DNA of 48,439 nt from positions 1-48,439 of the forward strand of contig JAHCJH010000008.1 in NCBI GenBank assembly GCA_026126345.1, given 5' to 3'. Of the stretch, positions 29,866 through 41,628 are shown in pieces (the first letter of the stretch is position 1; every line of letters begins with the position of its first letter). The notes below the pieces were generated by a model that was not told the origin of the DNA, did no database searches, and saw only the letters and a program-made list of their open reading frames with translations. Position numbers and translations under genes: made by a program. This stretch comes from Phycisphaeraceae bacterium. Lineage in GTDB: Bacteria > Planctomycetota > Phycisphaerae > Phycisphaerales > UBA1924.

Positions 29866-31124
29866 GTACCCCGGAACGCACGCGGGAGTTTCCCATGAGC
29901 CTGTCGGACCGTGAGCAACGATTCGTGTCCGCCATCGAGCGACGGCGGGGCGACCTGCTCGCGGACCTGAAGCTGCACGTCGGGCTGCCCACCGGCATGG
30001 GCAACGCGCCGGCGCTCGATGAATCCCGCGAGCGGCTGGCGGCCCGTTGCGCTGCGCTCGGGGCAGTGTGCGAACTGATCCCGGGCGACCCGAAGCCGAC
30101 GTGGATCGATGCCTGGGCACGCGGCCGAGATGCGCCGGCGGAGATCGCCCCGCCGCCCACGCTGGTGTGCCGCCGACCCGGCCCCCAGGGCTCACCGCAC
30201 GTACTCATCTCCGGGCACCTCGACACGGTGCACGATCCGCGGGGGGCGTTCCGGGAACTGTCGGTCGCCCCCGGAGGCGCGACCGCGACGGGACCCGGCT
30301 GCGTGGACATGAAGGGCGGCCTGGTGATCGCCATGGCGGCGCTCGAGGTCCTGGCCGAGTGCGGCGAGTCGATCGGCTGGTCATTCATCCTCAACAGCGA
30401 TGAGGAGACCGGTTCGTTCTGTTCCGATCGGGCGCTGCGGGCCGAGGCGGCGTCCGGGCGCTACGTCGCAGGGCTGGCCCTCGAGCCGGCCATGAGCAAG
30501 GGTGAATTGGCCATCGAGCGGGGCGGCTCCGGCCAGTTCCTGCTGGAATGCACCGGACGGTCGGCGCACGTCGGCCGCGACTTCGCCAGCGGCGTCTCGG
30601 CCGTGAACGCGCTGGCGTCGGCGATCCTCGAAGCGTCGGAACTGTCGCGCCCGTCGCTCGGAGTCTGCGTCAACGTCGGGCCGCTGCACTGTGCGACGCC
30701 GCCGAACGTCGTCCCCGATCGGGCCGCGGCGTGGGGCAACCTGAGATTCCCCACCCCACAGGCCGGTGCGGAGCTCGAGCGCGCGCTGTCGACCCTGGGA
30801 AGGTCGGGCCTGCCAGGGGTCACGGTGCGCTCCACCCTCAACCGACCCGCCAAGCCGATGACCCCCGCCGTCGAGCGTCTCGGAGGTGTGGTGCGAGCCG
30901 CCTCGGAGGCTCTGGGAAGACCACTCCCGTTCGGCCGTACCGCGGGAGTGTGCGATGGGAACAACCTGCAGGCCGCCGGCCTGCCGACAGTCGACACGCT
31001 CGGCGTCCGCGGCGGTGGACTGCACACGCCCGAGGAGTGGATCGAAATCGGCTCCCTCACGGAACGATCCGCCCTATTTGGGGTGGTCCTGAGCCGGTTG
31101 AGTGGTCTCGACCATCGATTTTGA
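29862..31124 (+). CDS. M20-family metallohydrolase (peptidase/deacylase)
   Basis: A 420-residue zinc hydrolase of the DapE/ArgE/CPG2 superfamily. Metal and catalytic motifs: LISGHLDTVHD (His and catalytic Asp), GPGCVDMKGGL (bridging Asp), LNSDEETGS (catalytic Glu-Glu), LALEPAMSKG (metal Glu) and the late GGGLHTPEEWI (metal His). GVCDGNNLQAAGLPTVDTLG is like the carboxypeptidase G2/ArgE type. The substrate is uncertain: an N-acyl amino acid or dipeptide. Overlap with dapF hints at DAP metabolism, while the nearby ast-like genes would fit desuccinylation. The start may also be the in-frame ATG at 29895. Confidence 0.88.
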   Translation: MSTPERTREFPMSLSDREQRFVSAIERRRGDLLADLKLHVGLPTGMGNAPALDESRERLAARCAALGAVCELIPGDPKPTWIDAWARGRDAPAEIAPPPTLVCRRPGPQGSPHVLISGHLDTVHDPRGAFRELSVAPGGATATGPGCVDMKGGLVIAMAALEVLAECGESIGWSFILNSDEETGSFCSDRALRAEAASGRYVAGLALEPAMSKGELAIERGGSGQFLLECTGRSAHVGRDFASGVSAVNALASAILEASELSRPSLGVCVNVGPLHCATPPNVVPDRAAAWGNLRFPTPQAGAELERALSTLGRSGLPGVTVRSTLNRPAKPMTPAVERLGGVVRAASEALGRPLPFGRTAGVCDGNNLQAAGLPTVDTLGVRGGGLHTPEEWIEIGSLTERSALFGVVLSRLSGLDHRF

Positions 31125-31296: not shown

Positions 31297-31539
31297 ATGA
31301 GTCTGCTGGAGCGATATCGCGACATGCCGGAAGATCAGCGCAAGCGCCTGACGCTCATTGTTGCGTCAGTGTGCCTGGTGCTGGGTGTCACTCTGGTCGC
31401 GTGGCAGTTGCTCAAGTCCGAACCCTTGCCCGGCACCCCCGCGGGTCCGGCGACCGAGGTGACGCAGGAAGGGGCCCCGCCCCCGCCGCCGTCGCCGACG
31501 ACGCCGGGCTTCCAGAGGGCCCCGGGCGAGCTGAAGTGA
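31297..31539 (+). CDS. Single-transmembrane small protein
   Basis: An 80-residue protein: a charged N terminus ([18 protein letters not shown]), one membrane helix ([20 protein letters not shown]) and a Pro-rich tail. It precedes the pseudopilin gene on the same strand with a 68-nt gap. It may assist the pilus/secretion system, but only position suggests this. Confidence 0.6.
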
Positions 31540-31607
31540 TGGGTCACGGTGTGGTGGACTGCGTGCCGGCCTCACAGCGACCGGCCGCAATCGAAATGGA
31601 GCGGAAC

Positions 31608-32495
31608 ATGAAGATGCGTCGCGGCGGATTCACACTCATCGAGCTGCTGGTGGTCATCGCGATCATCGCACTGCTGGTGGGCATCCTGTTGCCGGCCCTG
31701 AGCAAGGCGCGTCAGGCCAGCCGCCTGAGCGTGTCGCTGAGCAACGTGCGCCAGATCTCCGGCGCCATGGGCTCCTACCGCCTGGACTTCAAGGACCAGT
31801 TGCCCTTCCCCCTGGTGCAGAACGTCAACGGCGGCTGGGTGATCTGCGCCTGGGCCATGGGCGGCAAGTACAACGACGCCCGTTGGAACGGCGTGCCCTA
31901 CGACGTCGCCCCCGGCAACCGGCCGCTGAACGCGTACATCTACCCCACGGTGGCCCTGGACACCACGGTGAACACCGCCAACCGCGGGACCATCGACCTC
32001 CCGGCCTTCAAGTCACCCGGCGACAAGGGCACGATCAACTCCGACATCATCCTCGGCGGCGCGATGCGCGTCGACCAGTCGATCACCGGCTACGACGACG
32101 TCGGCTCGTCCTACATGCAGAACGTCGTCTGGTTCCAGCTCTTCCGCCGGAACAACAGCACCACCCTCGCTTCGTTCACTGAGGCGGTCAACGCCGGCAA
32201 CAAGCGCATGGGCTCGTCGCAGGTCGACCCGAGCAAGTTCGTGCTCCTCTCCGACCAGACCGCCCCGCTCGTGATCTTCGGCGCAGCGCCCAACCGGTTC
32301 GTCGGCGAGTTCGGCGACATCAACAAGTCCGTCATGGGCTTCCTCGACGGCCACGCCGACTACGTCACCATGGAACGGCGTAACCCCACCGCCGAGGACC
32401 CCTACGCCAACATGTCCATCGGCAACATGACCAGCAGCTCCCAGACCAAGCCCTACCCCTACTCCTTCTGGCTGCCGATGCGCACGCACAACTGA
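31608..32495 (+). CDS. Type II secretion/type IV pilus-like pseudopilin
   Basis: A 295-residue protein with a class III signal ([20 protein letters not shown]): cleavage after Gly7 exposes Phe, with Glu at +5, followed by a helix ending in [13 protein letters not shown]. The C-terminal globular part includes [19 protein letters not shown], the FxDGHxxxV motif seen in the large pseudopilin families of planctomycetes. It should be exported and processed by a prepilin peptidase; no assembly genes are present here. The start at 31608 has GGAG 7-10 nt upstream; ATG 31596 is an alternative. An intrinsic terminator follows. Confidence 0.92.
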
Positions 32496-32613: not shown

Positions 32614-34092
32614 ATGAACGCCGCCGCCACCAAGCACCCGCCCGCGTCCGGTCACGCCCCGGCGCCCGCCACCCTGGCCGACGACCTGCACGCATCACCC
32701 CTGGTGGCCCAGGCCGTCGACACCATCGTCAAGGAGGTTCGCGCCCGCTCCGCCCGCATCACCGACGTGCGCGGCCCGGCGAGCCCCGCCGCCCGCCAGA
32801 CCTACGAGGATTACATGAAGCGTTGCGCCGACCTGCGGGGCCGGGCGCTGCTCTACCCGTACATCGGCTCGGGCCTGGGTCACGGGGCGCTGGTCGAGCT
32901 CATGGACGGCTCGGTCAAGTGGGACATGATCTGCGGCATCGGCGTGCACTTCTTCGGCCACAGCGACCCGGACCTCACGGCCGCGGCGCTCCGCGGCGCC
33001 CTGGGCGATACGGTGATGCAGGGCAACCTGCAGGCCAACGGCGACGCGTACCGCTTCATGGACCTGCTGCTCAAGGCCGCCGGCCGGTCCAGCCGCCTCA
33101 AGCACGCGTACCTCAGCACCTCCGGCTGCATGGCCAACGAGAACGCGCTGAAGGTCTGCTACCAGAAGCACGCGCCGGCGAGCCGGGTCATCGCCTTCAA
33201 GGACTGCTTCATGGGTCGGTCGGTGACGATGAGCCAGATCGGCGACGCCGCCGCCAATCGCATCGGTCTGCCGCTGTCGACGCAGGTCGACTACATGCCG
33301 TTCTACGACCCCGTGGCGGCGGCCCGCATGGGCCAGGGGCGCTACATCGACATGTGCGTGTCGCACCTGCGCCAGTACATCGAGCGGTACCCCCGCCAGC
33401 ACGCCTGCTTCATCTTCGAGTTGGTGCAGGGCGAGGGCGGCTTCAACACGGCGCCGCGCGAGTACTTCACCGCGCTGATGGACGTCTGCAAGGCCAGCGG
33501 CATCGCGGTGTGGGACGATGAGATCCAGTCCTTCGGCCGCACCACCAGCATGTTCGCCTACGAGGCGCTGGACCTCGGCGACTACGTGGACGTCTTCTGC
33601 GTCGGCAAGATGACGCAAGTGTGCGCCACGCTCTACACCGCCGAGTACAACCCCGGGCCCGGCCTGCTGTCGGGCACGTTCATCGGCGGGTCCGTGCCCT
33701 TCGCGGTCGGTTCGCGTGTGCTCGAGCGGCTCGGAGCCTCGGATTTCTACGGCCCCGAAGGGCGTTTCGCCCGCCAGCACCGGGCCTTCTGCGACCAGGT
33801 GCGGGCGCTGGCCGCCCGGCGCCCCGAGTGGTTCCCGCGCACCGGGCCCTGCGGCGAGTTCGCCGATATCGTCGGCGGCGTCGGCGGCATGATGCGCTTC
33901 ACGCCCTTCGGCGGCGACAAGGACAAGGTGATGAAGGCCTGCAAGGCCCTGTTCGACGAGGGCGTCATCGTCTTCTACTGCGGGCACGGCCCGTACCACG
34001 TCCGCATGCTGCCGCCCCTGGGCGTGTTCGACGAACGCGACTGGCCCCGGGTGTTCGCCTGCGTGGAACGGGGGCTGGCCAAGGTCCTCTGA
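32614..34092 (+). CDS. Class III PLP aminotransferase, likely acting on an ornithine-type amine
   Basis: A 492-residue fold-type I class III aminotransferase. Seen: STSGCMANENALKVCYQKHA (PLP phosphate site), AFKDCFMGRSVTMSQIG, FELVQGEGGFNTAPREYF, VWDDEIQSFGRT and VFCVGKMTQVCAT with the Schiff-base Lys. It is longer than AstC/ArgD (about 400 residues), with an N-terminal extension of roughly 60 residues. Genomic context (astA, astD and a ureohydrolase nearby, same strand) suggests the AstC step, succinylornithine to succinylglutamate semialdehyde. That role is inference; other omega-amino acids are possible. Confidence 0.85.
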   Translation: MNAAATKHPPASGHAPAPATLADDLHASPLVAQAVDTIVKEVRARSARITDVRGPASPAARQTYEDYMKRCADLRGRALLYPYIGSGLGHGALVELMDGSVKWDMICGIGVHFFGHSDPDLTAAALRGALGDTVMQGNLQANGDAYRFMDLLLKAAGRSSRLKHAYLSTSGCMANENALKVCYQKHAPASRVIAFKDCFMGRSVTMSQIGDAAANRIGLPLSTQVDYMPFYDPVAAARMGQGRYIDMCVSHLRQYIERYPRQHACFIFELVQGEGGFNTAPREYFTALMDVCKASGIAVWDDEIQSFGRTTSMFAYEALDLGDYVDVFCVGKMTQVCATLYTAEYNPGPGLLSGTFIGGSVPFAVGSRVLERLGASDFYGPEGRFARQHRAFCDQVRALAARRPEWFPRTGPCGEFADIVGGVGGMMRFTPFGGDKDKVMKACKALFDEGVIVFYCGHGPYHVRMLPPLGVFDERDWPRVFACVERGLAKVL

Positions 34093-34098
34093 ACCGAT

Positions 34099-35283
34099 TC
34101 ACGGGGACGGGTGGCCCAGGACGGCGCCGATCACGGCTCCGGCAAACACCTCGGGCGTGAAGGCGGCGCGGACGGCTCGCGCGCCGCGCTGGCCGAGCCG
34201 AGCGGCCTCCGCCGGGTCCGCCAGCAGCTCGGCGCACGCGCGGGCAAACCGCACAGGATCGTCGGCGACCAGGCAGTGCTCCCCGGCCCGGACCGACCCC
34301 TCCAGGCCGCTCAGCGCGTGCGGGCACGCCACCGTCGCCCGCCCGTGCGCCAGCGCCTCGAGCACCTTGATCTTCGTCCCCGCGCCAAATCGGATCGGCG
34401 CCACGCACACGCTGGCCGCGGCGTACTCCTCCCGCAGATCCTCCACAACCCCCGCCAGTTCCACGCCCGGCGTCCGCTCGCACAGCCGCAGCAGCCGGCC
34501 GGAAGGCGGCGCGCCGACCACCCGGAGCCGGGCGCCCGGGCGGGCTCGCCGCAGCCGGGGCCAGCACCGTTCCAGGAACCAGCGGAGTCCCTCGGCATTC
34601 GGGAACCACGACCACGTGCCCACGGTCATCACAACCCCGCCCTGGGGTTGGTGCGTCGGCTCGCACCAACCGCCCGCCGGAGGCACCGGAACATTCGGCG
34701 CGATCCACGTGGCCGCATGGCCGATCGCCTCGGCGTCGCGCCGGCAGGTGACGATCACCCGCCCGTACCGCAGAATCTCCGCCCGGGCGTGCTCGCGGGC
34801 CACCCGCGCCAGCCGCAGCGCCCGTCGGCGACGCACCGACCACCACGGACTCGCCGCGGCCATCGTCTCGTGCAGCATCCAGTCGAGATCATCCACGTCC
34901 AGGATCGCCGGCGCCAGGCGCGGCGCATCGACCAGCCTGCCGAGCCACGCCAGCCGCACGACCACCAGGTCATAGCCGCCCGCGCGAACAAGCTCCGCCG
35001 CGCGAGCACGAACCCCGGCCGCGGCTTCCACGCTCGTGCGCCCGGGCCGCCACCGGTCCCCCAGACCGGCGCTGGCCCGCCCCGGCTCCGGCGCCACCAC
35101 GTGCAACGTGCCGAACGCCCGACGCGACGTCTCGATGTCCTCGGCGGGATAATGGCCGTCGGAGATGACAGCTAGGTCCACCGACCCGAGGGTCTGCAAC
35201 GCTCGGATCGTGTGCACCGCGCGCTGCCTCACCCCGGCGCGTGCCGGCAGCGGGGGAACCTCGTTGAGGTACAAGATGCGCAT
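34099..35283 (-). CDS. GT4-type glycosyltransferase
   Basis: A 394-residue glycosyltransferase with the GT-B architecture. The N-terminal domain starts MRILYLNEVPPLPARAGVRQ, with the Gly-rich loop of such enzymes. The C-terminal domain has MTVGTWSWFPNAEGLRWFLE, LRVVGAPPSGRLLRL and IRFGAGTKIKVLEALAHGRA. The last is the donor-binding E-x7-E region of GT4. It probably adds a sugar to a lipid or surface glycan. It sits opposite to the ast-like genes, separating aminotransferase from astA, and ends 6 nt from the aminotransferase stop. Confidence 0.88.
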   Translation of the reverse strand: MRILYLNEVPPLPARAGVRQRAVHTIRALQTLGSVDLAVISDGHYPAEDIETSRRAFGTLHVVAPEPGRASAGLGDRWRPGRTSVEAAAGVRARAAELVRAGGYDLVVVRLAWLGRLVDAPRLAPAILDVDDLDWMLHETMAAASPWWSVRRRRALRLARVAREHARAEILRYGRVIVTCRRDAEAIGHAATWIAPNVPVPPAGGWCEPTHQPQGGVVMTVGTWSWFPNAEGLRWFLERCWPRLRRARPGARLRVVGAPPSGRLLRLCERTPGVELAGVVEDLREEYAAASVCVAPIRFGAGTKIKVLEALAHGRATVACPHALSGLEGSVRAGEHCLVADDPVRFARACAELLADPAEAARLGQRGARAVRAAFTPEVFAGAVIGAVLGHPSP

Positions 35284-35446
35284 CGGGGTGCACGATCGGG
35301 GCCTGCTCGGTGCCCCGTCCAGCCGGGCGACACAATAACCGCCTCCGGACCCGCCGTCCCGCTGCGCAAGGCCTGCCGCGCGGCCGATGGACCTGAAGCG
35401 CTACGCTGCCTCGCTCGTGGACCAGTGACTGTCCGCCCGGTGCCCC

Positions 35447-36640
35447 ATGTTCATCATCCGCCGCGCCACAGCCGACGACGTTCCCACGCTGCTGAAGCTG
35501 GCCAAGATGGTCCACTTCATCAATCTGCCGGCCGACAAGGAAATTCTCGACGACAAGGCCGTCTGGTCGCGCCAGTGCTTCATGCTCGCCGCCGAGGCCG
35601 ACGATCATCGCAAATCCGCCAAGCCGTCCCGGCGCACCGGCCAGGCGGCCGGCGACGGGCCGGGGTTGTCCGAACCCCTGCGCTCCCTCTCCGGACGCTC
35701 GCCGCTGTTCATGTTCGTCCTGGAGGAAGCCCCCGACGCCGATGGCCCCGGCGGCGGCGTGATCGGCACCTGCCAGATCGTCTCGCAGATGGGCGGTCCC
35801 GGCCAGCCGAACGTGTCGCTGCAACTGGCCCGGCGGGAGATGTTCAGCCAGTCGCTCCAGACCGGCGTCACGCACACCACGGCGCGGATGCACCTGGACG
35901 AAACGGGCCCCACCGAGATCGGCGGGCTCATCCTCCAGCCGTCGTTCCGCAGCCACCGTCAGAAGCTCGGCCGGTTCCTCTCGCTCATCCGGTTTCACTT
36001 CATGGGCCTGCACCGGGCGATGTTCTCGCAGCGCGTGCTGGCGGAGATGATGGGCGAGATCACCATCGACGGCTTCAGCCCGTTCTGGGAGCACTGCACC
36101 CGCTGCTTCATCAACCTGACCTACGACGAGGCCGACCGCTTCTGCCAGACCTCCAAGGAGTTCATCCTCACCCTGTTCCCCCGGGAGGAGATCTACCTGT
36201 CGCTGCTGCCGCCCGAAGCGCGAAGGGTCGTCGGCCAGGTGGGGCCCGAAACGGTGCCGGCCAAGCGCATGCTGGAGAAACTCGGCTTCCGCAGCCACAA
36301 CCGCGTCGACCCGTTCGACGGAGGCCCGCACCTCGAGGCCATGCTCGACGAGATCTCGATCGTGCGCGACACCGAGCGCGCCCCGCTGGCCCCGCCGGCC
36401 GCCGATGCGTCGAAGCTCAAGCGGTTCGGCATGGTCAGCGTGCTCAGCGACGACGGCGAGTTCTTCGCCGTCCAGTCGGCCTTCGACCTCGACCGCAAGG
36501 GCAGGCTGGTCGTTCCTCGCGAGTTCATGGCCGCGCTCCGGGCCGAGCCGGGCGACGAGGCGGGCTTCACGCCCACGGACCGCCCCGAGCCGCGGCCCAT
36601 CAGGGGCGGAGCCGGAAACCGGCCGACGTCCAAACGCTGA
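35447..36640 (+). CDS. astA: Arginine N-succinyltransferase-like GNAT protein
   Basis: A 397-residue protein of the AstA family, which succinylates the alpha-amino group of arginine using succinyl-CoA. Seen are IIRRATADDVPTLLKLAKMV, TEIGGLILQPSFR, FWEHCTRCFINLTYDEADRF and PAKRMLEKLGFRSHNRVDPF followed by DGGPHLEAMLDEI. An inserted, probably disordered segment lies at about residues 55-85 (SAKPSRRTGQAAGDGPGLSE region), and the C-terminal 100 residues extend beyond the usual length of about 340. astD follows after 34 nt. Start ATG 35447. Confidence 0.9.
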   Translation: MFIIRRATADDVPTLLKLAKMVHFINLPADKEILDDKAVWSRQCFMLAAEADDHRKSAKPSRRTGQAAGDGPGLSEPLRSLSGRSPLFMFVLEEAPDADGPGGGVIGTCQIVSQMGGPGQPNVSLQLARREMFSQSLQTGVTHTTARMHLDETGPTEIGGLILQPSFRSHRQKLGRFLSLIRFHFMGLHRAMFSQRVLAEMMGEITIDGFSPFWEHCTRCFINLTYDEADRFCQTSKEFILTLFPREEIYLSLLPPEARRVVGQVGPETVPAKRMLEKLGFRSHNRVDPFDGGPHLEAMLDEISIVRDTERAPLAPPAADASKLKRFGMVSVLSDDGEFFAVQSAFDLDRKGRLVVPREFMAALRAEPGDEAGFTPTDRPEPRPIRGGAGNRPTSKR

Positions 36641-36674
36641 CCGGCGCACCAGCGCGGCCCGTACCATCGCCCCC

Positions 36675-38237
36675 GTGAGCACGTTGCCAGCCAACCTGAT
36701 CGCCGGCCGGTGGGTCCCGATCCCCGGCGAATCCCTGCGCTCGACGAACCCGGCGCACCCTCAGCGGTGCGTGTACGCCTGCGGTCCCGTCCCGGCCCAC
36801 GTCGATGACGCCGTCGCCGCCGCCAGATCGGCCCTGGGCCCGTGGGCGGCCCTGCCCGCCGAACGCCGGCACGCCGTGCTCCGCCGGTTCGCGTCGATCA
36901 TCAAGCAGCGCGCCGACGCCCTGGCCGGCCTGCTGTGCGACGAGGTGGGCAAGGTGCTCTGGGAGTGCCGGGGCGAAGTCGCCTCGGTCGTCAACAAGGT
37001 CGAGATCACGCTCGACCCGGCCCCGGAAGGTGGCATGCACCGCGTCACCCCCGCGTCGATCGCGCTCTCGGCCACCCGCCAGGGGCGGACCATCTTCAAG
37101 CCCCACGGCGTCATGGCCGTGGTCGGGCCGTTCAACTTCCCCGCGCACCTGCCCAACGGGCACATCGTTCCCGCCCTGGCGATGGGCAACACGGTCGTGT
37201 TCAAGCCCAGCGACAAGGCCCCGGCGGTCGGGCAGATGCTCGCGCAGGCCTTCGACGATGCGCTGCGGCAGGAGCTCGGTAACGGCTACATTCCCGGCGT
37301 GGTGAACCTGGTGCAGGGCGGGGCCGATGTGGCGTCCCGCCTGGTGGGGCACGACGGCATCGACGCCGTCGCGTTCACCGGCTCCTGGCCGGTGGGGCGG
37401 CGGATCCTGGAGGCCAACCTCGACCGCCCGGGGCGGATCATCGCGCTGGAACTCGGCGGCAACAACCCCGCGATCGTGATGGACGACGCCGACCTTCGAT
37501 CGGCCGCGATCGAACTGGTCCGATGCGCGTTCAACACCACCGGCCAGCGCTGCACCTGCACCCGCCGGCTCATCGTGCACGAAAAAGTCGCCGCCCGGCT
37601 CGTCAGCGCCGTCTGCAAGGCGGCCAGCAACCTCATCATCGGCGACCCGCGAGCCCCGCACCCGGTCTTCACCGGTCCGATCATCTCCCAGGCCGCGCGG
37701 GACGCGGTGCTGGACTTCCAGGCCCGCGCCGCCGACGCCGGCGGCGAAGTGCTCATGCCCTGCCGGCCGATGGACAACCCCGGCGGCGGTTGGTTCATCA
37801 CCCCGGGCGTGATGCGCGTCGATCGCTTCGAGCCCACCGAGCCTCCCCGCGCCGCCGACCTGCGCCCCGGCTCCGACGTCGAGGTCTTCGGCCCGCTGCT
37901 GCGGTTCACCACCGTCAACAGCCTCGACGAAGCCATCGCCCAGGCCAACGCCACCCGCTACGGGCTCGCGGCCAGCATCTTCACGGCCAACCCGGACCAC
38001 GCCGAACGCTTCGTCGCCGAGTGCCGCGCCGGCTGCCTGAACGTCAACACCGGCACCGCCGGAGCCTCCTCCAAGCTCCCCTTCGGCGGGCTGGGGCTCT
38101 CGGGAAACCACCGCCCCGCCGGCGCCTTTGCCCTGGACTACTGCGCGTACCCCGCCGCTTCCATGGTGGAAACCTCTCCCGCGGCCGGGGCCACCATCCC
38201 CGAGGGCATGCGGTTTGATGATGGTTGGCTGCGTTGA
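36675..38237 (+). CDS. astD: N-succinylglutamate 5-semialdehyde dehydrogenase
   Basis: A 520-residue aldehyde dehydrogenase of the AstD type, which oxidises succinylglutamate semialdehyde to succinylglutamate with NAD. VVGPFNFPAHLPNGHIVPAL and GNTVVFKPSDKAP (Lys177) bind cofactor. IIALELGGNNPAIV has Glu259 and NTTGQRCTCTRR has the nucleophile Cys293. The LPNGHIVPAL segment is a recognised AstD feature. The start is GTG 36675, giving LIAGRWVPIPGE at the expected position. It forms a two-gene unit with astA. Confidence 0.94.
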   Translation: MSTLPANLIAGRWVPIPGESLRSTNPAHPQRCVYACGPVPAHVDDAVAAARSALGPWAALPAERRHAVLRRFASIIKQRADALAGLLCDEVGKVLWECRGEVASVVNKVEITLDPAPEGGMHRVTPASIALSATRQGRTIFKPHGVMAVVGPFNFPAHLPNGHIVPALAMGNTVVFKPSDKAPAVGQMLAQAFDDALRQELGNGYIPGVVNLVQGGADVASRLVGHDGIDAVAFTGSWPVGRRILEANLDRPGRIIALELGGNNPAIVMDDADLRSAAIELVRCAFNTTGQRCTCTRRLIVHEKVAARLVSAVCKAASNLIIGDPRAPHPVFTGPIISQAARDAVLDFQARAADAGGEVLMPCRPMDNPGGGWFITPGVMRVDRFEPTEPPRAADLRPGSDVEVFGPLLRFTTVNSLDEAIAQANATRYGLAASIFTANPDHAERFVAECRAGCLNVNTGTAGASSKLPFGGLGLSGNHRPAGAFALDYCAYPAASMVETSPAAGATIPEGMRFDDGWLR

Positions 38238-38267
38238 ATCCGGGCGGGTTGTTGCTATGGTCTCGGC

Positions 38268-38648
38268 GTGAGGCCGGACGGCGGACCAACTGATCTCGGC
38301 GATGCCGGCCCGGACGCGTCGGCGGTTGTGCCGTTCTCGCCCCGCGGACGCGTGCTCATGGTGCAGGCCGCCGCGCTGATCGTCGCGGGGCTCACGCTGC
38401 CCATGTTCATGGGCATCGTGGTTCAGCCGCTGATCACGGCCGTCGAGCGACTGGCGGAAGTGGAGATGGGGCCGGGCGGGTGGATCGAGCGCTTCGGGCG
38501 CTCGATCGCGCGCGCCTTCGCCGCCAAGTGGGGTGGGCTTTCGTCCTGGGCGTCCTTGATGCCGCCGGCCGGTTTCGTCCTGGGCCTCTGGGTCCTGATT
38601 CGCCCGCCGGCCGTCGCGCTCCGGCTCTTCGGGAGGCTTCCGCCATGA
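38268..38648 (+). CDS. Small membrane protein A
   Basis: A 126-residue protein with two membrane segments (LMVQAAALIVAGLTLPMFMG and LMPPAGFVLGLWVLIRPP) separated by an amphipathic stretch. GTG 38268 is the start. Its stop overlaps the next gene's ATG (ATGA, 38645-38648), so the two are coupled and may form a complex. No family recognised. Confidence 0.6.
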   Translation: MRPDGGPTDLGDAGPDASAVVPFSPRGRVLMVQAAALIVAGLTLPMFMGIVVQPLITAVERLAEVEMGPGGWIERFGRSIARAFAAKWGGLSSWASLMPPAGFVLGLWVLIRPPAVALRLFGRLPP

Positions 38649-39205
38649 CTCCGCACACCTGGTTTCGGCTGCTCGTTCGCGCCACCGGCCTGCTCCTGAT
38701 CGGCATCGGGCTGCCGCCGTTGTTCCAGTGGGTGTTCATGCTCGTGAACGGTCTGACGGACCCGTCGTTTGTCGAGCTGCCGCCCGGCGAACGCTTGCTC
38801 CGGATCGCCGCGCTATTGCCGATCTACTCGTGCCAGGTCGTGATGGGGACATACCTGCTGTTCTTCGCCGACAAACCGATCCGACGGCTGGTGCGCGACG
38901 CGGTGCGCCGTTGCCCGGCCTGTGGGCGACGCCACTCGGGGCCGGCCACCGAGCGGTGCCCCGCGTGCGGCCACGCCCAAACGCCGCCGATCGTCCCTTC
39001 GGCGCCCGCATCAGACGGCCCACGCGGGATTCTCCGGATCGCTAACCTCTCCCCGTGCCCAAGACCGTCCTGCCCGATTCGCGCGTGTCGCCCCGGTTCG
39101 CCGGGCTGGCGACCTTCTGCCGCTACCCGCGTCTGGCCGACGTGCGCCCGGACAACCTGCCCCTGGACTGGGCCATCTACGGTGTTCCGTTCGACGGCGG
39201 GGTGA
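38645..39205 (+). CDS. Small membrane protein B with C-terminal zinc ribbon
   Basis: A 186-residue protein with two membrane helices (LLVRATGLLLIGIGLPPLFQ region and LLPIYSCQVVMGTYLLFF) and a cytoplasmic zinc ribbon, CPACGRRH...CPACGHAQ. The recognisable part ends at about residue 135. The last 50 residues are encoded inside the beginning of the downstream ureohydrolase gene in another frame (151-nt overlap), so they look like read-through added after loss of an earlier stop. Coupled to the preceding gene. Confidence 0.6.
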   Translation: MTPHTWFRLLVRATGLLLIGIGLPPLFQWVFMLVNGLTDPSFVELPPGERLLRIAALLPIYSCQVVMGTYLLFFADKPIRRLVRDAVRRCPACGRRHSGPATERCPACGHAQTPPIVPSAPASDGPRGILRIANLSPCPRPSCPIRACRPGSPGWRPSAATRVWPTCARTTCPWTGPSTVFRSTAG

Positions 39206-40047
39206 CGTACCGGCCCGGGGCCCGCTTCGGCCCGCGCGCCGTGCGCGAGGCGTCCCAGTACGTCAAGCGGTTCCACCTCACGCACAACATCGACGTCTGC
39301 GAAGCGCTGTCCATGGCCGACGCCGGCGATGCGCCCGTCGCCCCGTTCTCCATCCACGACACGCTCGACCGCGTCGCCGACTTCGCCACCGAGCTGGCCG
39401 ACGGCGCGCCGGGAACCCGGCTCCTGGCCGTCGGCGGCGACCACAGCATCTCCTACGCCAACATCCGCGCCGCCTACGCCCGCGCCGGCGAGCCCGCCAG
39501 CGGCCTGGCCCTCATCCACTTCGACGCCCACCTCGACACCGTCGACGAAGTCTGGGGCGAGAAATTCAGCCACGCCTCGCCCTTCCGCCGCGCCGTGGAA
39601 GAGGGATTCGTCGACCCCAGAAACATGCTCTCGGTCGGCGTGCGCGGCCCGCTCAACTCGGCGGACGATCTGGCCTTCGCCAGGGCCAACGGCGTCGCGG
39701 TGGTCAGCGAGATCGACCTGCGGGCCAGGCCCAGCGGCCACGCCACGCTCAACCTGCTGCCCATCACCCAGTTCCTCCAGCGCCTCGGCAAGACCCCCGT
39801 CTACATCACCTTCGATATCGACGTCGTGGACCCCGCCTACGCCCCCGGCACGGGCACGCCCTGCCCCGGCGGCTTCTCCGCCGCCGAGGCGATCGCCATG
39901 CTGCGGCACCTCGCCGGCGTTCGCCTGGCCGGGGCCGATGTCGTGGAAGTCCTGCCGGCCATGGACCCTTCGGGCAACACCGCGCTGCTGGCGGCGCACG
40001 TGATGTTCGAGATCCTCGCGCTCGACGCCGTCTCGCGCCGGGCCTGA
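39055..40047 (+). CDS. Ureohydrolase (agmatinase/arginase family)
   Basis: A 330-residue manganese ureohydrolase. Metal motifs: VGGDHSISYANIRAA, IHFDAHLDTVDE and FDIDVVDPAYAPGTGTP; WAIYGVPFDGGVTYRPGARF is the agmatinase-like N-terminal signature. The enzyme releases urea from a guanidino compound (agmatine, arginine, guanidinobutyrate or similar). The position next to astA and astD suggests a guanidino substrate of that pathway, perhaps N-succinylarginine, replacing the missing AstB. That substrate is a hypothesis. GTG 39055 is the chosen start, matching the usual distance to the YGVPFD motif. Confidence 0.9.
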   Translation: MPKTVLPDSRVSPRFAGLATFCRYPRLADVRPDNLPLDWAIYGVPFDGGVTYRPGARFGPRAVREASQYVKRFHLTHNIDVCEALSMADAGDAPVAPFSIHDTLDRVADFATELADGAPGTRLLAVGGDHSISYANIRAAYARAGEPASGLALIHFDAHLDTVDEVWGEKFSHASPFRRAVEEGFVDPRNMLSVGVRGPLNSADDLAFARANGVAVVSEIDLRARPSGHATLNLLPITQFLQRLGKTPVYITFDIDVVDPAYAPGTGTPCPGGFSAAEAIAMLRHLAGVRLAGADVVEVLPAMDPSGNTALLAAHVMFEILALDAVSRRA

Positions 40048-40605: not shown

Positions 40606-41628
40606 ATGGCCCACGCCACGCGTGTGGACAACCCCGGCCGGCCCCGGCCCTTGAATCGGCGCGATCCGACGGTCGCCTCGGTCGTCCTGCAATGGCGGCG
40701 GCTGACCGGCGGCGGGCGCGGGGCCCCGACGCTCGTTGCCTGTTCCGGCGGTGCGGATTCGACGTTCCTGGCCCTAGCCCTGGCCAGCGCCGGGGCGCCG
40801 GTGTCCCTCGGCCACGTGGTGCACGACCTGCGTCCCCGGGCCGAGGCGCTGGCCGACCGCGATGCGGTCGTGGAACTGGGCGCTCGCCTGGGGCTTCCGG
40901 TGCTCGTGGCCGAGATCCGCGTGCGGGCCGCCAATGGCAATCTCGAGGCCGCCGCGAGAACGCAGCGCTACCGGGCCCTGGCGCACCTCGCGGCCGAAGC
41001 GTCGCTGCGGTTCATCGCGACGGCGCACCAGGCCCACGATCAGTTGGAATCGGTGCTCATGGCCCTGGTCCGGGGCAGCGGGCCGGGCGGCTGGCGGGCC
41101 ACGGCCGAGCGTCGCGTGCTCCCGGGCGGAACGGTTCTGGTCCGCCCGATGCTGGGCGTCGACCCCCAGCGGGCCCGCACCCTGTGCCGCGCCGCCGGGT
41201 TCGCCTGGCAGACCGACGCCACCAACGCCGACCCTTCGCGCCTCCGCGCTGCGCTGCGGGCACGGGTGCTCCCGCCGCTGCTGGAGCTGAGGCCCGCCGC
41301 GGCCCGCGCGGCGGCCCGCTGGTCGCGCCACGCCGCCGAGGCCCAGGCCCTGGTGCAGCACCTGGCCACGGCGCTGGGGCCCGGGCCCTGGGCACGGGCC
41401 GACCTGCGCGCGGCCAACCCCCTGGTGATCGGCCAGGCGCTGCGCCTGGCCGCGGCCCGGTGCGGCGGTGGGGGGGATCGACTGACGGATCGTGCGGTGC
41501 GCGAGGCGGTGCGGATCATCCGATCGCCGGCGACCGACCCCCGCGAGTTGACCTGGAATCGCGCCCGCGTCCGCATCACGGCCCGGCACGTCGAGGTGCG
41601 ACCGGTCGAACCGGTGGCTCGCCCCTGA
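40606..41628 (+). CDS. tilS: tRNA(Ile)-lysidine synthetase
   Basis: A 340-residue PP-loop ATPase, which attaches lysine to C34 of tRNA-Ile2(CAU) so that it reads AUA. The P-loop is CSGGADST (residues 46-53). LGHVVHDLRP, GNLEAAARTQRYRALAHLA, ATAHQAHDQLESVLMALVRG and DATNADPSRLR match the family order. It lacks most of the C-terminal TilS domains, ending near residue 340, as in short forms. Its substrate tRNA is encoded at 45398-45470. Expected essential in organisms using AUA. Confidence 0.93.
   Translation: MAHATRVDNPGRPRPLNRRDPTVASVVLQWRRLTGGGRGAPTLVACSGGADSTFLALALASAGAPVSLGHVVHDLRPRAEALADRDAVVELGARLGLPVLVAEIRVRAANGNLEAAARTQRYRALAHLAAEASLRFIATAHQAHDQLESVLMALVRGSGPGGWRATAERRVLPGGTVLVRPMLGVDPQRARTLCRAAGFAWQTDATNADPSRLRAALRARVLPPLLELRPAAARAAARWSRHAAEAQALVQHLATALGPGPWARADLRAANPLVIGQALRLAAARCGGGGDRLTDRAVREAVRIIRSPATDPRELTWNRARVRITARHVEVRPVEPVARP

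Follow-up and report, generated by a model that had tools for sequence, protein, structure and literature searches.

A proposed urea-releasing variant of the arginine succinyltransferase pathway in Phycisphaerae, with a ureohydrolase in the place of AstB

The arginine succinyltransferase (AST) pathway, described as AstCADBE in Escherichia coli and Pseudomonas, has at its second step the enzyme AstB, whose products are succinylornithine, CO2 and two ammonia. Among the ureohydrolases, proclavaminate amidinohydrolase (PAH) takes as its substrate a guanidine with a substituted alpha-nitrogen. The peptide arginase OspR, also a ureohydrolase, converts peptidyl (acylated) arginine to ornithine and so provides a precedent for the kind of chemistry considered here; it is a RiPP maturase that works on a peptide and has no activity on free arginine or N-acetylargininamide (PMC10028609).

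Here we describe a locus in which AstA and AstD are accompanied by a ureohydrolase (hereafter called UH) and AstB is missing. The AST pathway itself is known; judged from sequence, the variant appears to be new. The original prediction knew of no description of it, and we likewise found none of a succinylarginine ureohydrolase in the open-licence literature.

An ast cluster without AstB or AstE

The DNA analysed (the window) is a stretch of 48,439 nucleotides from a Phycisphaeraceae bacterium (contig JAHCJH010000008.1, assembly GCA_026126345.1); its cluster is given in Table 1. The original prediction, that astA and astD lie side by side, with an aminotransferase and an agmatinase-family ureohydrolase on the same strand, holds for all four genes. 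They lie in the range it gave (32614–40047), but the cluster conserved in relatives reaches further upstream, to the M20 deacylase gene, which it had overlooked; nor did it mention the opposite-strand glycosyltransferase that splits the aminotransferase (AT) from AstA.

Table 1. Genes of the cluster and those that interrupt it (positions in the window)
Feature	Position	Strand	Model matches and remarks
M20 metallo-deacylase (PRK07338-like)	29895–31124	+	PF01546 64.8 bits; PRK07338 301.6 bits (below cut-off 357)
Prepilin-like gene	31371–32495		Between M20 and AT; breaks the cluster run in this genome
Class III aminotransferase (AT)	32614–34092	+	PF00202 138.6 bits
Glycosyltransferase	34099–35283	opposite	Between AT and AstA; TIGR03087-like, PEP-CTERM/XrtA type, below cut-off
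AstA, arginine N-succinyltransferase	35447–36640	+	PF04958 266 bits; TIGR03243 185 bits (below cut-off)
AstD, N-succinylglutamate 5-semialdehyde dehydrogenase	36675–38237	+	GTG start; PRK09457 448 bits, TIGR03240 430 bits
Agmatinase-like ureohydrolase (UH)	39055–40047	+	GTG start; PF00491 269 bits

The two AstD models are the best families for that protein by a wide margin, yet both scores fall below the curated cut-offs. AstA of this genome scores 166 bits against the strict AstA equivalog cut-off of 391; in a relative with a contiguous cluster, AstA exceeds the cut-off of the AOST subfamily.

The remaining DNA around these genes can be described briefly. The glycosyltransferase occupies a position that has no counterpart in most relatives, where AT directly adjoins AstA. 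Between AstD and UH an open reading frame (38480–39205) appears to encode a small membrane protein that carries a motif like a zinc ribbon, and the stretch 38594–39040 within this gap gave no family match. Beyond UH, 40606–41628 encodes a short TilS-like protein of 340 residues, in which the N-terminal PP-loop domain alone is recognised. Clustering of neighbouring open reading frames for further conserved genes yielded nothing beyond noise in DNA so rich in GC.

AstB (PF04996) and AstE (PF04952, PF24827) have no match in the whole 3.01 Mb draft of the source genome (G000), which is 86.5% complete. The two enzymes are thus missing from the cluster, as had been claimed, and astB and astE were not found elsewhere in the draft. 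Because the draft is incomplete, this absence by itself is weak evidence, and we therefore widened the test to relatives.

In the pathway that we propose, AstA would convert arginine to N2-succinylarginine. The binuclear-metal UH, in AstB's place, would hydrolyse N2-succinylarginine with H2O to N2-succinylornithine and urea. AT would convert N2-succinylornithine to succinylglutamate semialdehyde, AstD would oxidize the semialdehyde to succinylglutamate, and the M20 deacylase, in AstE's place, would release succinate and glutamate. We consider it likely that this is an AST pathway in which UH replaces AstB and acts on succinylarginine after AstA. It is likely, too, that the activity is a new one, N2-succinyl-L-arginine ureohydrolase, in a urea-releasing AST pathway with AstB, AstC and AstE all replaced, and that the slot filled by AstB or UH has been swapped repeatedly.

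UH and AstB across Phycisphaerae

The search with a UH profile and for AstB and AstA covered 397 genomes from the class Phycisphaerae (Planctomycetota). UH is present in 46 of them, AstB in 60 and AstA in 106. UH and AstB never occur in the same genome (0/397; 0/46 UH genomes and 0/60 AstB genomes), and all 46 UH genomes carry AstA, so that no UH-bearing genome among the 397 is without it. In hypergeometric tests that are naive in ignoring relatedness, the association of UH with AstA has p ∼6e-31 and the exclusion between UH and AstB within AstA genomes has p ∼9e-26. These figures support the view that the ureohydrolase replaces AstB. In a draw from the phylum, AstA was found in 53 of 392 genomes.

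Within the window's order, the AstA genomes have a close UH orthologue (at least 57% identity) exactly where AstB is missing, with the single exception of G342. This genome is 98% complete and keeps M20-AT-AstA-AstD (locus L067) with neither AstB nor UH; it may hold a third solution to the AstB step. The other genomes with AstA and neither gene are G519, which is 58% complete, G736, in which AstA is a fragment match, and G743, which has no AT or M20 near AstA in the retrieved stretch. Outside the Phycisphaerae/Planctomycetota group the identity of UH homologues falls from about 60% to 47%, the best among the matches listed, in Actinomycetota; among these matches, the retrieved loci have neither AstA nor AstB near the UH-like gene.

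The gene neighbourhood is conserved in related genomes, M20, AT, AstA and AstD being adjacent in most of them. For the AstA regions retrieved, AT adjoins AstA in 40 of 46 UH genomes and 29 of 35 AstB genomes, and M20 lies near AstA in 36 of 46 and 21 of 35, respectively. UH itself is on the same strand and at most 7 kb downstream of AstA in 24 of the 46 UH genomes; in about half it is not near AstA. Four further metagenome-assembled genomes of Phycisphaerae or Planctomycetota with the UH version (L068, L069, L073 and L075) have UH close downstream of AstD. Genome G057, on the other hand, has a contiguous M20-AT-AstA-AstD-AstB run in which M20, AstD and AstB all exceed their curated cut-offs, so that the set there forms an AST pathway with AstB as its last gene. 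For AstB of the relative L048 the TIGR03241 score is 580 bits (cut-off 538), and AstD there exceeds its curated cut-off. Since some relatives have M20-AT-AstA-AstD-AstB and others M20-AT-AstA-AstD-UH, UH fills the AstB slot.

The exchange has happened repeatedly. A tree built from the joined AT, AstA and AstD sequences of 79 genomes requires a minimum of eight changes between UH and AstB, and well-supported branches force seven of these. In seven of seven independent pairs, one gene was gained where the other is missing (sign test p 0.016, with neither-gene genomes left out). Swaps occur even within genera: G609 has UH whereas G002, G034, G095, G172 and G624 have AstB, and G579 and G731 have UH whereas G548 and G674 have AstB.

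Two later steps of the pathway appear to have their own replacements. AT is not of the AstC type, scoring 61 bits with the AstC model TIGR03246 against a cut-off of 610. From its context we propose that AT is the succinylornithine transaminase, an equivalent of AstC and not its orthologue; its position beside AstA in UH and AstB genomes alike agrees with the role first suggested for it. Of 25 related genomes, 23 have an M20 orthologue, which as a rule immediately precedes AT. PF24827 (AstE) has matches in 11 of 25 related genomes with AstA, and all of these matches lie away from the cluster. The M20 protein is likely the N-succinylglutamate desuccinylase that substitutes for AstE. Removal of a succinyl group is within the known chemistry of M20 enzymes, since these include succinyl-diaminopimelate desuccinylase. 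As AT and M20 are also found in the clusters of AstB genomes, the replacements of AstC and AstE are separate from that of AstB.

The ureohydrolase and its proposed substrate

UH belongs to the ureohydrolase family (PF00491), with the metal motifs GGDHS (127–131), D(A/S)H(L/V)D (157–161) and FDxDxxDP (253–260). The metal ligands H130, D157, H159, D161, D254 and D256 are invariant in 10 orthologues. In both sequence and fold (AlphaFold2 model, mean pLDDT 91.6) its best matches are Pseudomonas aeruginosa guanidinopropionase, Streptomyces clavuligerus PAH and guanidinobutyrase. UH proteins form one clade within the ureohydrolases (SH-aLRT 99) and have private residues, Y69, K71, N136, A174-S175 and N201, some of them in active-site loops: A174-S175 adjoins the catalytic-loop histidine H173, and N201 is in loop B. 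In agmatinase, the form of the substrate site is reported to depend on loops A and B (PMC8125230). One guess is that the private residues of UH might bind the succinyl group.

On genome context and the exclusion of AstB, we propose that UH is an N-succinylarginine ureohydrolase. The pattern of co-occurrence would be the same if UH made ornithine and urea from free arginine and AstA then succinylated the ornithine, AstB being unneeded; this scheme also predicts UH with AstA and AstB excluded, so that co-occurrence cannot fix the order of the steps. Some enzymes of the AstA family do take ornithine besides arginine, and TIGR03243 is named for both. We nevertheless think this order of steps unlikely, for reasons that lie in both proteins. 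In arginase, N130, S137 and N139 bind the alpha-carboxylate of free arginine, and D181 and D183 its alpha-amino group (PMC9224512). When aligned with two annotated arginases, UH has no counterparts of N130, S137 and N139, nor of the D181/D183 loop. Its identity to arginases is 27–32%, against 43% to guanidinopropionase and PAH. We therefore disfavour an arginase role for UH, given that its counterparts of the ligands for free arginine are missing.

AstA points in the same direction. Between sister genomes of opposite state AstA is 71–83% identical, as alike as within one state, and no column of the AstA alignment was found that separates UH from AstB genomes, even between such sisters. The job of AstA, as its sequences suggest, is therefore probably the same in both, and in AstB genomes AstA must be the enzyme that supplies succinylarginine. 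Together, the missing arginase ligands and the undifferentiated AstA favour succinylarginine over arginine as the substrate of UH. The substrates along the pathway are all inferred, above all that of UH, which would act after AstA rather than before it, on arginine that is already succinylated.

The two other PF00491 genes of the source genome were considered as substitutes for AstB and rejected. Read by eye from the translations, one (L003, 1393–2319) is HutG beside hutI, and the other (L002, 1321–2484) encodes an agmatinase-like protein of 387 residues beside a phosphoglycerate-mutase-like gene; neither looks like an obvious arginase. AstB genomes, too, have PF00491 paralogues with identities about as low, and the presence of these other genes therefore does not follow the loss of AstB.

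Alternatively, UH could be a plain agmatinase, or a hydrolase of guanidino acids, whose place near the ast genes is due to chance, the loss of AstB being unrelated or made good by an undetected enzyme. With the agmatinase equivalog TIGR01230 it scores 202.4 bits, above the curated cut-off of 174.3, so that sequence alone would name it agmatinase, and its nearest solved structures are those of guanidinopropionase, PAH and guanidinobutyrase. Such an enzyme would not, however, be expected to come with AstA in every UH genome and with AstB in none, to be exchanged for AstB in at least seven independent swaps, to keep its position after AstD, or to form a separate clade with residues of its own. 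We find this explanation very improbable, and rejected a stray agmatinase on the pattern of co-occurrence.

It is hardly credible that the cluster handles some other acylated guanidino compound, such as an N-acylarginine released when peptides or natural products are turned over, in place of arginine catabolism: AT and M20 are not orthologues of AstC and AstE, and AstA is below the strict cut-off, but the M20-AT-AstA-AstD set of relatives ends in a true AstB (L048), which fixes the pathway there as AST.

Comparison with known systems

If the proposal that UH acts on succinylarginine in AstB's place is true, the textbook pathway can release its nitrogen by a second kind of reaction, which gives urea instead of two ammonia, and its use in nitrogen scavenging would be altered unless urease is present. 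The ureohydrolase superfamily would gain an activity. In UH genomes, the name agmatinase would be wrong for genes that score above the cut-off of that model, and reconstructed pathways would show a false AstB gap. Two unrelated enzymes that have repeatedly taken each other's place would make a clear natural example of non-orthologous replacement.

Compared with AstCADBE of E. coli and Pseudomonas, the cluster has AstA and AstD that are homologous by family models, and the proposed order of intermediates is equal save for the by-products of the second step. It differs in having UH for AstB, with urea as the expected product in place of two NH3 and CO2, another class III aminotransferase for AstC and an M20 deacylase for AstE. 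Agmatinase SpeB is the protein whose curated cut-off (TIGR01230) UH passes; E. coli SpeB is nonetheless only 39% identical to UH, whose context is that of AST. Guanidinopropionase GpuA (PDB: 3nip) and guanidinobutyrase GbuA (PDB: 3nio) rank with the best matches of UH in sequence and fold and have guanidino-acid substrates, but they are without most of the private residues of the UH clade and, to our knowledge, have no tie to ast genes. As far as we know, the nearest functional analogue on an alpha-N-substituted, arginine-type substrate is PAH (PDB: 1gq6), whose gene in S. clavuligerus, pah1, we take from its neighbours to be that at L238. PAH shares with UH the fold, the metal site and 43% identity, whereas it belongs to clavulanic-acid/clavam biosynthesis and has H, P and G-T at the positions of K71, N201 and A174-S175 of UH.
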